25,359 bases of DNA, taken from positions 1-25,359 of the forward strand of contig JABXJU010000040.1 of NCBI GenBank assembly GCA_013375405.1. The letters are read 5' to 3'. Below, in pieces: positions 8,699-25,271 of this stretch; the first letter of the stretch is position 1, and each line of letters starts with the position of its first letter. A program made the position numbers and the translations under genes. Below the pieces are notes generated by a model. The model saw nothing but the letters and a program-made list of their open reading frames with translations, was not told the origin of the DNA and did not search any database. This DNA is from Candidatus Helarchaeota archaeon. Its GTDB lineage: Archaea; Asgardarchaeota; Lokiarchaeia; Helarchaeales; HEL-GB-A.

Positions 8699-8767
8699 CT
8701 CCAATTTCCGATAAATTAATCCTATTAATAAGAATTAATAAAACCACCTTTTATTACTCACAAAAGG

Positions 8768-8779
8768 TTATATTTAAAT
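8768..8779 (+). promoter_or_regulatory. hsp20 promoter TATA box
   Basis: TTATATTTAAAT, preceded by purine-rich CAAAAGG that could act as a BRE (factor B recognition element). The predicted transcript start is near 8797, about 60 nt before the ATG at 8858, so the transcript carries a leader that holds the hairpin at 8808-8847. Confidence 0.55.
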
Positions 8780-8807
8780 ATTATGTTGCATTACGGATTA
8801 TCAAACA

Positions 8808-8847
8808 ATCTCAATTAGAATTTAAAATTATTAATTTAAATTGAGGT
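8808..8847 (+). promoter_or_regulatory. Leader hairpin covering the hsp20 Shine-Dalgarno site (candidate RNA thermometer)
   Basis: Bases 8808-8816 pair with 8839-8847 (9 pairs, one G-U), which locks the GAGGT of the SD in double strand. After an A-A mismatch the stem continues with five pairs (8818-8822 with 8833-8837, the first G-U), then a U-U mismatch, one further possible pair (8824-8831) and an A/U-rich loop. An AU-rich, mismatch-bearing stem over the SD of a small heat-shock gene has the layout of bacterial thermometers. It is not a recognised ROSE or fourU element, and AT-rich DNA can form such stems by chance. Confidence 0.45.
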
Positions 8848-8857
8848 GAATAATGTA

Positions 8858-9343
8858 ATGAGTCTTATCCGTAGAGGCAGGAATTGGCCATTTCGAGTAT
8901 TCGATGATATCTTTGAAGATTTTTGGGAACCATTCGACTTTAGTATCGTAAGAACACCTCGAGTGGTGTTCCCGAAACTAGATATTAAAGAAGAAGAAAA
9001 TGAATACAGGATCACGGCTGAGGTACCAGGATATGCAAAAGAAGAAATCAATATTGAATTACATGACGATACACTGACCATTTTCTCAGAACATAAAGAG
9101 GAGACAGAAGAAGAGAAAGAAGGGTACCTCTATCGAGAACGCTCTCACCGTTCATTTACCCGCTCATTCAAAATTCCAGATAAAATTACCCATGAAGAAA
9201 TTGTTGCAAAATTAGAGAATGGTTTATTAACTCTTCGTATCCCGAAGAAAGAGCCAGAACCGCCTAAGAAAGTTGAAATTAAGGAACATGAGTTACTCGA
9301 AGACATGGAAGTTAAGGAAACCGAAACAGAAGAAAAGGAGTAA
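8858..9343 (+). CDS. hsp20: Small heat shock protein (Hsp20/alpha-crystallin family)
   Basis: 161 residues, normal for archaeal sHSPs. The ATG at 8858 is preferred because GAGGTGA (8843-8849) is 8 nt upstream; an in-frame GTG at 8846 lies inside that site. N-terminal arm 1-43 is aromatic-rich (FDDIFEDFWEPFDF). The alpha-crystallin domain spans about 44-135, from PKLDIKEEENEYRITAEVPG to the hallmark ENGLLTLRIPKK. A short acidic tail carries VEI, a possible I/V-x-I motif that docks into neighbouring subunits during oligomer assembly. The protein is an ATP-independent holdase that keeps unfolding proteins soluble in the cytoplasm. It is monocistronic: own TATA box, own leader, and a T-tract terminator right after the stop. 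Control may be both at the promoter and through the leader hairpin. Confidence 0.95.
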   Translation: MSLIRRGRNWPFRVFDDIFEDFWEPFDFSIVRTPRVVFPKLDIKEEENEYRITAEVPGYAKEEINIELHDDTLTIFSEHKEETEEEKEGYLYRERSHRSFTRSFKIPDKITHEEIVAKLENGLLTLRIPKKEPEPPKKVEIKEHELLEDMEVKETETEEKE

Positions 9344-11121: not shown

Positions 11122-11541
11122 ATGTTTGATGACGATGAATATGTAAGATGGATGAGGGAAGCTGAAAATACTTTAAAATCGGCTATTACTGATAAAGAAA
11201 ATGAATTTTATAATTGGTGTTGCTTTAAATGTCAACAAGCAGCTGAATTTGGTCTAAAAGCTTTTTTATATGGCATAGGATCAACTCCTTTTGGACATTC
11301 ATTGATAAAATTAGCTGATACTCTTGAGAGTCAAGATATTGATGTTTCTTCAATTTTAACTATTTGTAGAAGGCTAGATTTATTTTATATTCCCTCCCGC
11401 TATCCAAATGCTCACTCCACTGGGTCACCTTATGAATACTATGATGATGATATTGCACAAGAAGCCTTGGAAAACGCGCAAAAAATACTCAATTTTGTTA
11501 AAGGGCTTAAGAATGATAGGTTACCTAAAGAAAATAAATGA
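11122..11541 (+). CDS. hepT: HEPN domain toxin of a HEPN-MNT toxin-antitoxin pair
   Basis: 139 residues, all helical. The HEPN signature is seen as WMREAENTLKSA near the N-terminus, CFKCQQAAEFGLKAFLY at 34-50, and the catalytic R-x4-H motif RYPNAH (R93, H98). HEPN toxins of this group cleave RNA. The partner nucleotidyltransferase follows and overlaps by 29 nt. In characterised HepT/MntA pairs the MNT protein neutralises the HEPN protein by adding AMP to a Tyr next to the R-x4-H motif; here Y94 lies directly after R93, which suits that mechanism by analogy. No SD precedes the ATG; a TTAAATTAAAA run about 30 bp upstream suggests a leaderless transcript. Confidence 0.88.
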   Translation: MFDDDEYVRWMREAENTLKSAITDKENEFYNWCCFKCQQAAEFGLKAFLYGIGSTPFGHSLIKLADTLESQDIDVSSILTICRRLDLFYIPSRYPNAHSTGSPYEYYDDDIAQEALENAQKILNFVKGLKNDRLPKENK

Positions 11542-11938
11542 CGGGCTAGATAAATTTTGTAAGATAGCTATTAAGAAATTGTCTCCTAAATGCATTATCT
11601 TGTATGGTTCTTTAGCTAGAGGCGATTTCAATGAAAGAAGCGATGTCGATATAATTATAATTACTTCAAATTTACCCAATAAATATTTTAAAAGGGCTAA
11701 ATTACTCTACGATCTTATTGAAACTGCGGATCCTATCGAACCTCTCGGATTTACCCCAGAAGAATTTAGCAATATGATTCAAAAAAGAAATTGTACCAGT
11801 TTATTTGCGATGGAAGAAGGAAAAGCATTGTACGGCGAAAAATATTTTTCCTTTTTAAAAAAAATCTATGAAAAAATCGTAAACAAATATCAACTTGTTA
11901 AGAGCGTAGCTGCGTGGATTCCTAAAAGCAAATTTTAA
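11513..11938 (+). CDS. mntA: MNT-type minimal nucleotidyltransferase (antitoxin of the HEPN pair)
   Basis: 141 residues from the ATG at 11513, inside the end of the HEPN gene; the frame is open further upstream (from 11408) but that part shadows the HEPN coding sequence. The polymerase-beta-type motif is complete: GSLARGDFNERSDVD (G32, S33, D44, D46), i.e. GS-x10-DxD, the metal and nucleotide site. The rest (LLYDLIETADPIEPLGFTPE, then TSLFAMEEGKALYG) matches MNT proteins. It probably transfers AMP from ATP to the HEPN toxin and so silences it. A weak AAGGG lies 7 nt before the ATG; overlap with the toxin gene implies coupled translation, which keeps the ratio of the two proteins fixed. Confidence 0.88.
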   Translation: MIGYLKKINDGLDKFCKIAIKKLSPKCIILYGSLARGDFNERSDVDIIIITSNLPNKYFKRAKLLYDLIETADPIEPLGFTPEEFSNMIQKRNCTSLFAMEEGKALYGEKYFSFLKKIYEKIVNKYQLVKSVAAWIPKSKF

Positions 11939-18535: not shown

Positions 18536-18558
18536 AGCAGACCGACGGTCGGTCTGCT
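18536..18558 (+). promoter_or_regulatory. TetR-type operator: perfect 23-bp palindrome
   Basis: Two exact 11-bp arms (AGCAGACCGAC and GTCGGTCTGCT) flank one central G. It is GC-rich in AT-rich surroundings and ends 5 bp before the ATG of a TetR-family gene. Size and symmetry fit operators of TetR repressors, so autoregulation of the TetR-methyltransferase operon is likely. As RNA it would also be a very stable hairpin, but no T-run follows and the gene begins at once, so it is not a terminator. Confidence 0.8.
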
Positions 18559-23390: not shown

Positions 23391-25271
23391 TTGAGTGAGA
23401 AACTTTTAGGATATAATGGAAAAATTGCTTATATTAATCTAAGTGACAAAAAACTCGAAATAGAGGATCTAGATCCACGGATCGCAAGGGATTATATTGG
23501 AGGGACCGGATTAAGTGCAAAATTAATCCATGATTTGTTATCAAATGACGATTATGCCACTTTAAAAAAGGATATTTATTCAGAAATTAACCCACTTGTA
23601 TTTGCAACCGGGCCTCTCACAGCAACTATAGCTCCCTCCTCAGGGCGATATTCAGTCTCTGGGCTTTCGCCCCTCACGTACCACTGGGGCGAGGGTACTT
23701 CTGGGGGACATTTTTGCATCTCCTTAAGGAAATGCGGCTATGATGCGATAATTTTTACAGGCAAGGCAGAGTCTCCAACTTATCTTTATATCAATGATGG
23801 AAAAATCGAGTTTAAGGATGCCAACAAGGTATGGGGGAAAGATTCTTACCAAACTCAAGAGATTATCAAACAGGAATTAAATATGAAGGCCCTTAGGGTT
23901 GCCTGCATTGGAGTTGCTGGCGAGAATTTGGTAAAATATGCCGCAATAATGAATGATGATGGCAGAGCTGTAGGACGATGCGGATTAGGCGCGTTAATGG
24001 GCTCCAAAAAGCTAAAAGCATTAGCCATTCTTGGAAGCAATAAAGTCGAATTAGCCAAACAGGAAAAAATGAAGGAATTGAGAGGAAAAATTGAAAGTAG
24101 CACCGCTATGGATGTAATGAGGAATGTAAATACCAACGTTAGGAATTTATTTGGAACCAATAGTTATTTCGATATGGGAGTGGCGGCGGGCGACGTACCC
24201 GGATATTATTTCACTGATACAGAATTTTTAGCAGAAAAATTAACGGCAAAAACGATAAAAGAAGAATACCCTGTATTCATTACTGGTTGCGCTATGTGTA
24301 CAATACGCTGTGCGAAACAAACCATCATACCCGATAATGGAGAAGAAATTCAGGTTGATGGACCCGAATATGAGTCTGTAGCTGCTCTGGGAAGTTTGTG
24401 TGGGGTATTTGATTCAAAGCCCGTAATCTTGGCACATCATAAATGCAATGTTCATGGAATCGATGTAATCTCTTGTGGTGTTTCCATTGCTTTTTTGATT
24501 TACCTGATTGAAAATAAGATAGGTATTAGCGAAATTAAGAAACATCTGAATGAAATCAAAATTGAGGATATCCATTGGGGTAATGGAGAATTAGTTTTAG
24601 ACTTAATTGATAGAATTGCCAAACGAGAAGGCATTGGAGACCTTTTAGCTGAAGGCGTGAAAGTTATGGCTGGGAAATTAAATGTCGATCCCAATTTAGC
24701 TGCTCATGTGAAAGGTTTAGAAATACCTATGCATGAACCACGTGCATTCGCTGGACAAGCCTTATCTTATATGACTAGTTGCACGGGGGCCAATCATAAT
24801 AAAGGAGATTGGTTTTCTGTTCAAATGGGCACGCTTTCCCTTCCAAAATATAACGTTGTAAGAGCCCCTAAAGACCTCATCACAGGATATGAAGGAGCCA
24901 TTATTGCATTACAAGATTTCAGAGGATTTGAAGATTCCGCAGTTGTTTGCAATTTCGCAACTCCTCCTAATCAAAATCAATCAGCCAGATACCTCTCTCA
25001 TGCCACTGGGATTAAATACAAAGGAGTCGATATTATCACTTGCGGGGAACGAATGAATAACTTAAAACGGCTTATATCTTGTAATATGGGAATCACCCGA
25101 AATGATGATTACTTACCGAAGCATGTGCTCGAAGTTCTCGAATATGGCGGAGCTGCGGGAATTAAACTTGATTTGGAAGAGAATTTAAAAAAGTATTATG
25201 AACTTAGAGGCTGGGAATGGGAAAGTGGTCGTCCAACAGAAGATAAATTAAAAGAATTGGGAATTATCTAA
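23391..25271 (+). CDS. aor: Tungsten-dependent aldehyde:ferredoxin oxidoreductase
   Basis: 626 residues, standard AOR length. TTG start, with GGAGG (23378-23382) 8 nt upstream. The N-terminal domain opens GYNGKIAYINLSDKKLEIED and contains the family motif RDYIGGTGLSAKL. The [4Fe-4S] ligands are C300, C303 and C307 (ITGCAMCTIRC, C-x2-C-x3-C) and C520 (AVVCNF). Pterin-binding segments such as DGPEYESVAALGSLCG and HVKGLEIPMHEPRAF are present. AOR oxidises aldehydes to acids and reduces ferredoxin, using tungsten bound to two pterins; it can also run in reverse with strong reductants. In operon with the alcohol dehydrogenase, it probably clears or uses the same aldehyde. Within the large AOR family, substrate groups (AOR, FOR, GAPOR, WOR) cannot be separated safely by eye. 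Confidence 0.92.
   Translation: MSEKLLGYNGKIAYINLSDKKLEIEDLDPRIARDYIGGTGLSAKLIHDLLSNDDYATLKKDIYSEINPLVFATGPLTATIAPSSGRYSVSGLSPLTYHWGEGTSGGHFCISLRKCGYDAIIFTGKAESPTYLYINDGKIEFKDANKVWGKDSYQTQEIIKQELNMKALRVACIGVAGENLVKYAAIMNDDGRAVGRCGLGALMGSKKLKALAILGSNKVELAKQEKMKELRGKIESSTAMDVMRNVNTNVRNLFGTNSYFDMGVAAGDVPGYYFTDTEFLAEKLTAKTIKEEYPVFITGCAMCTIRCAKQTIIPDNGEEIQVDGPEYESVAALGSLCGVFDSKPVILAHHKCNVHGIDVISCGVSIAFLIYLIENKIGISEIKKHLNEIKIEDIHWGNGELVLDLIDRIAKREGIGDLLAEGVKVMAGKLNVDPNLAAHVKGLEIPMHEPRAFAGQALSYMTSCTGANHNKGDWFSVQMGTLSLPKYNVVRAPKDLITGYEGAIIALQDFRGFEDSAVVCNFATPPNQNQSARYLSHATGIKYKGVDIITCGERMNNLKRLISCNMGITRNDDYLPKHVLEVLEYGGAAGIKLDLEENLKKYYELRGWEWESGRPTEDKLKELGII

Follow-up and report, generated by a model that had tools for sequence, protein, structure and literature searches.

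Known RNA thermometers combine a strong Shine-Dalgarno (SD) sequence with a closed hairpin, and hsp20 is a known target of such elements in bacteria. Thermometers of the FourU and hsp17 types consist of one short AU-rich hairpin that lies over the SD and carries a mismatch, the SD of FourU being placed opposite four U residues. The ROSE element of E. coli ibpA (RF01832) also belongs to a small heat shock gene and pairs the SD within the leader, but it is longer, being described by a 73-position model, and has a conserved sequence of its own.

In archaea, the hsp20 gene Mpsy_0075 of Methanolobus psychrophilus is reported to be transcribed with a 65-nt leader, favoured at 8 °C and predicted by Mfold to bury the RBS, or with a 12-nt leader, favoured at 18 °C (PMC5378194). 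When a bacterial dnaJ thermometer was introduced in Methanosarcina mazei, the amount of reporter protein is described as increasing 2.8-fold between 30 and 40 °C; the elements of Synechocystis hsp17 and Salmonella agsA were unresponsive in the same host, and the authors call the work the first use of a thermometer in an archaeon (PMC11549558). In Sulfolobus acidocaldarius, nine proteins encoded by leadered transcripts are reported to increase after a 30 min heat shock, and five of them, HSP20 included, have leaders of 11–20 nt (PMC10653856). The Phr and HSR1 systems likewise control archaeal hsp20 genes near the transcription start, but are described as acting on DNA (PMC9133787). The original prediction for the locus considered here, a hairpin over the SD of an archaeal hsp20 gene, held that no archaeal case of this layout is established: as regards proof this stands, since the matches listed in the open-licence literature include no natural RNA thermometer with experimental proof in an archaeon, but the layout itself had already been predicted for M. 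psychrophilus hsp20 (PMC5378194).

The hsp20 gene, its relatives and SD use in the window

The gene lies in a stretch of 25,359 nucleotides (hereafter the window; 36.4% G+C) from a Candidatus Helarchaeota archaeon (contig JABXJU010000040.1) and encodes, at 8858–9343 of the plus strand, a small heat shock protein of 161 aa whose match to PF00011 (E 4.8e-27) confirms that a genuine hsp20 follows the leader. Its start was set at the ATG at 8858 because M1 and S2, the conserved MS N-terminus, are nearly invariant across an alignment of 22 Hsp20 proteins. The other 21 rows are close relatives (P0002–P0022, 56–70% identity), among which four (P0002, P0007, P0011 and P0015, with 61–70% identity) are named Helarchaeota and two Promethearchaeota, in agreement with an archaeal host; one is named after the bacterium Deferrimicrobium and perhaps derives from a mis-binned contig. 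The C-terminal tail VWKKLAEDTK, or a sequence near to it, is common to seven of the 22 aligned proteins (P0005, P0008, P0010, P0012, P0017, P0018 and P0019) and is absent from the Hsp20 of the window. Wider Hsp20 searches returned two distant loci in genome contigs, both from records that carry bacterial names (40% and 36% identity), and eight loci in viral contigs with the profile of the 22 proteins (best 33% identical); hsp20 is also present in 16 of 28 relatives of one of these bacterial genomes, all of them distant. No archaeal relative with a usable hsp20 leader was among the bacterial and viral loci recovered by these searches.

The window also encodes two HGD-D (2-hydroxyglutaryl-CoA dehydratase) proteins, a U32 peptidase, a pyridine nucleotide oxidoreductase, a HEPN/nucleotidyltransferase pair, a pyruvate formate lyase-like enzyme, a TetR regulator, an iron alcohol dehydrogenase and an aldehyde ferredoxin oxidoreductase. 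The HEPN (11122–11541) and MNT-like nucleotidyltransferase (11408–11938) genes are adjacent, an arrangement that we take to be that of a HEPN/MNT toxin-antitoxin pair. An inverted repeat of 23 nt at 18536–18558, AGCAGACCGAC-G-GTCGGTCTGCT, is perfect apart from its central base and stops 5 nt upstream of the TetR-family gene (18564); it is probably the regulator's own operator.

The use of SDs was scored with an assumed anti-SD sequence. Exact matches of at least 5 nt at −18 to −4 occur at 8 of 17 window gene starts, a count biased toward SDs because the positions of four starts (NUDIX 2539, PNDR 9515, PFL 14215 and orf276 16620) were changed from those in the ORF list with knowledge of the SD; the 17 do not include the nucleotidyltransferase ORF that overlaps at 11408. 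In the controls, such matches are present in 1.8% of 612 segments farther upstream and in 3.3% of 15-nt segments overall, and the unadjusted starts, hsp20 included, are still above them (5 of 18 with a match of at least 5 nt). SD motifs are therefore clearly enriched at the gene starts of the window, in contrast to reports describing them as rare or not prevalent in Lokiarchaea (PMC12993045, PMC7531240), and this genome, judging from the sequence, makes use of SDs.

Promoter, leader and predicted hairpin

The hsp20 promoter is marked by a TATA-like box, TTTAAATA, at 8773–8780 of the plus strand, the sole 8/8 match in 8721–8857 to TTTAWATA, which we take to be the archaeal TATA consensus. The TATA-to-start spacing presumed to be usual in archaea would put the transcript start at about 8797–8804, in agreement with the start near 8797 that had been proposed, and the predicted leader would thus measure 54–61 nt, with the hairpin 4–11 nt from its 5′ end. 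We also considered a second promoter, from which transcripts would be nearly leaderless; the only other near TATA match, TTTAAATT at 8835, was set aside because its transcript would begin past the hsp20 ATG. The locus resembles Mpsy_0075 in being an archaeal hsp20 with a similar layout and a predicted structure that buries the RBS; it differs in that the choice of start site is reported to alter leader length with temperature in Mpsy_0075 (PMC5378194), while the TATA scan of 8721–8857 revealed no short-leader promoter here.

No other of the 17 gene starts examined has an SD match as long as that of hsp20, GAGGTGA (7 nt, plus strand 8843–8849), and the 45 bases preceding this match contain only 5 G+C. 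In the predicted fold, the pair list gives on the plus strand a 5′ arm at 8808–8822, whose CUC (8810–8812) faces the GAG of the SD, an AU-only loop of 10 nt at 8823–8832, and a 3′ arm at 8833–8847 that terminates in the SD core GAGGU. The basal stem, in which 8808–8816 pairs with 8839–8847, has 9 bp and is separated by an A8817/A8838 mismatch from an upper stem of 5 bp (8818–8822 with 8833–8837). The fold thus reproduces the proposed hairpin at 8808–8847, with its 9-bp basal stem pairing GAGGU; the proposed A-A mismatch is likewise present, but the single G-U pair that had been described becomes two among the 14 pairs (U8809-G8846 and G8818-U8837). GAGGU (8843–8847) is predicted to be fully paired in both the minimum-energy and the centroid folds, G8848 and A8849 of GAGGUGA being left unpaired, and the SD core is 0.009–0.025 unpaired across four fold contexts. 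At 37 °C the segment 8808–8848 folds with −9.3 kcal/mol on the plus strand versus −6.4 kcal/mol on the minus strand, as expected if the RNA matters.

The hairpin resembles the FourU and hsp17-type thermometers in being single, short and AU-rich, in containing a mismatch and in covering the SD; its SD, however, lies opposite AUCUC rather than four U, and no sequence relation to either type is evident. It shares with ROSE the small heat shock gene, a leader that pairs the SD and a fold modelled as shut, but the ROSE sequence is not matched by the window. No Rfam family, ROSE and FourU included, reaches its gathering score in the window, and at E values up to 10 the matches in 8750–8920 were limited to three families of microRNA, all at chance level.

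The inverted repeat might instead act as DNA, either by itself or through an adjacent site that binds a heat-shock repressor, the RNA hairpin being a by-product. The sequence CTCAC-N5-GTTAT at 8757–8771 differs at two positions from the Archaeoglobus HSR1 site, and is the best match near hsp20 to the HSR1 operator CTAAC-N5-GTTAG. This HSR1-like site abuts the TATA box, and Phr and HSR1 are described as repressing archaeal hsp20 genes by binding at or near the transcription start (PMC9133787), which speaks for such an element; sites with at most two mismatches are nevertheless fewer in the window than chance would give (3 observed against 7.1 expected). The Phr operator, sought as TTTA, TGGTAA and AAAA round the transcription start, has no match in the window, and TGGTAA does not occur between 8247 and 9757. 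Moreover, the two G-U pairs of the 14 are paired in RNA only, and the outer arms of the repeat are 22 nt apart. A DNA operator is thus unlikely, and less likely than either a chance hairpin or a functional one in the RNA.

Hairpin stability and SD occlusion compared with chance

The original prediction had made folding better than that of same-composition shuffles a point of comparison, and the outcome depends on the segment. The leader alone (8797–8857) folds with −9.7 kcal/mol, a value equalled by 4.1% of 1000 dinucleotide shuffles, and for leaders from start sites 8800 and 8803 the shuffles folding as well fall to 2.3% and 1.5%; in the hand-picked segment 8808–8848 they are 0.4%. The leader by itself folds only modestly better than its shuffles (1.5–4.1%), and the margin shrinks when coding sequence is added, with 13.5%, 16.9% and 8.5% of shuffles as stable for segments extended to 8870, 8887 and 8917, respectively, and 33 of 200 for 8797–8900.

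A hairpin without function, arising in a very AT-rich leader from one CTC opposite GAG together with A/T runs, is a real possibility and is nearly as likely as a functional one. Stem length was dropped as evidence for function and is unremarkable, because 18% of controls (3697 of 20,000 shuffles and 674 of 3634 real AT-rich segments) also form a stem over GAGG that is 9 bp or longer. When the SD was held and only the upstream bases were shuffled (2000 shuffles in each of three contexts), the SD was at least as well hidden in 8.1%, 4.4% and 11.5% of the shuffles, and 5.1%, 14.6% and 3.4% were as stable; stability and occlusion were matched jointly by only 2.3%, 2.1% and 1.6%, which argues against chance. 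When 198 real AT-rich segments taken from the window replaced the shuffles, 12 hid the SD as well, 16 were as stable and 5 did both. In addition, among 2508 AT-rich windows of 41 nt from both strands, 9 fold as well, the hsp20 hairpin included.

A comparison of SD occlusion across genes depends on the choice of measure, since hsp20 ranks first or ninth with a 5-nt or an 8-nt SD. With the 5-nt core it is the most occluded (0.009, the next being 0.195) among 11 window genes, which were chosen by the analyst as SD-like from the 17, with the omission of HGD-D1, U32, HEPN, orf151, TetR and ICMT; with the earlier 8-nt measure, which extends beyond the stem, it is ninth of 17 (0.346). In a set defined by a fixed rule, none of the seven other window genes whose SD is at least 5 nt long is as occluded as hsp20 in any of four contexts, a result that stands against chance; when 4-nt cores are allowed, one of ten (PFL, 0.003) is more occluded in the leader-only fold and none of ten in the other three contexts. 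Phage T4 was used as a further comparison (first 50 kb, 34% G+C, 87 starts): among its 64 starts with an SD of at least 4 nt, 3, 2, 2 and 5 (about 3–8%) are as occluded as hsp20 in the four contexts, as are 2 of the 32 with an SD of at least 5 nt and 1 of 17 in a narrower set, counts that speak for chance.

Support for the hairpin over chance is therefore modest, at 2–12% by most tests and of the order of 2–8% overall. Its weight comes chiefly from the identity of the gene, since hsp20 is where such an element would be sought in advance, the hairpin being located on the one gene class in which a thermometer would be expected.

Temperature behaviour and the overlapping start-stop

The reading tentatively preferred is a zipper-type occlusion of the SD in the hsp20 leader that is opened by heat. 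At low temperature, 8808–8816 would pair with 8839–8847 and bury GAGGU, so that the small ribosomal subunit would rarely bind the leader; warming would melt the AU-rich stem and expose the strong SD, with the consequent synthesis of more Hsp20. The fold, the occlusion of the SD and a steady drop of the opening cost with temperature are computed: opening the SD costs 8.6 kcal/mol at 28 °C, 6.1 at 45 °C and 4.8 at 55 °C in the model, and the energy of the SD:anti-SD duplex is −13.2, −9.9 and −8.0 kcal/mol at the same temperatures. The energy of the hairpin crosses −6 kcal/mol near 47 °C (interpolated), and, according to de Smit and van Duin, translation in E. coli reportedly begins to suffer at a hairpin energy of about −6 kcal/mol. 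Where transcription starts, whether the leader folds in this way in vivo, how translation responds and that heat is the signal are matters of inference.

In the nearest-neighbour model the SD core is less than 0.05 unpaired per base at 42 °C and less than 0.13 at 55 °C, and becomes half-open between 80 and 85 °C. The modelled opening is thus high and broad, whereas melting over a modest temperature range had been expected. The same model, however, keeps the E. coli ibpA ROSE element (RF01832) shut from 25 to 70 °C, with at most 0.18 unpaired per SD base; as this proven thermometer is also modelled shut, the model cannot place the transition of the hsp20 hairpin. The first two Helarchaeota bins are reported from sediment at about 28 and 10 °C (PMC6478937).

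A hairpin predicted to remain shut through the whole mesophilic range, with less than 0.05 unpaired per base up to 42 °C, would also suit a translational element other than a thermometer, namely a constant damper on hsp20 translation opened by a helicase, a protein, a small RNA, or initiation at an ATG-TAA at 8853 followed by re-initiation at the hsp20 ATG. The hsp20 ATG begins with the last A of this start-stop (plus strand 8853–8858), whose own ATG is separated from the SD core by 6 nt, against 11 nt for the hsp20 ATG; the spacing is 7 or 8 in 6 of the 11 SD genes, and 11 in PNDR as well. Within ATGTAATG (8853–8860), the start-stop therefore has an SD spacing nearer the usual one than that of the hsp20 ATG. 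These spacings favour the re-initiation variant; nevertheless, ATGTAATG occurs elsewhere in the window at 24112 (plus strand) and 21980 (minus strand), so the start-stop may be accidental, and no partner that would open the hairpin is indicated. Such a non-thermal role of the hairpin is unlikely.

The thermometer reading of the hsp20 hairpin, which rests on modelled folds, is plausible but unproven. A fuller version, in which a natural Asgard RNA thermometer would free the strongest local SD from a heat-labile hairpin and the ribosome would meet AUG-UAA and be handed to the overlapping hsp20 AUG, is very improbable. Asgard archaea are considered to stand near the ancestors of eukaryotes and are reported to make little use of SDs, and archaeal heat-shock control beyond the Phr and HSR1 lineages is largely open; if the hsp20 thermometer is confirmed, it would mean that SD-based RNA switches operate in the Asgard lineage.
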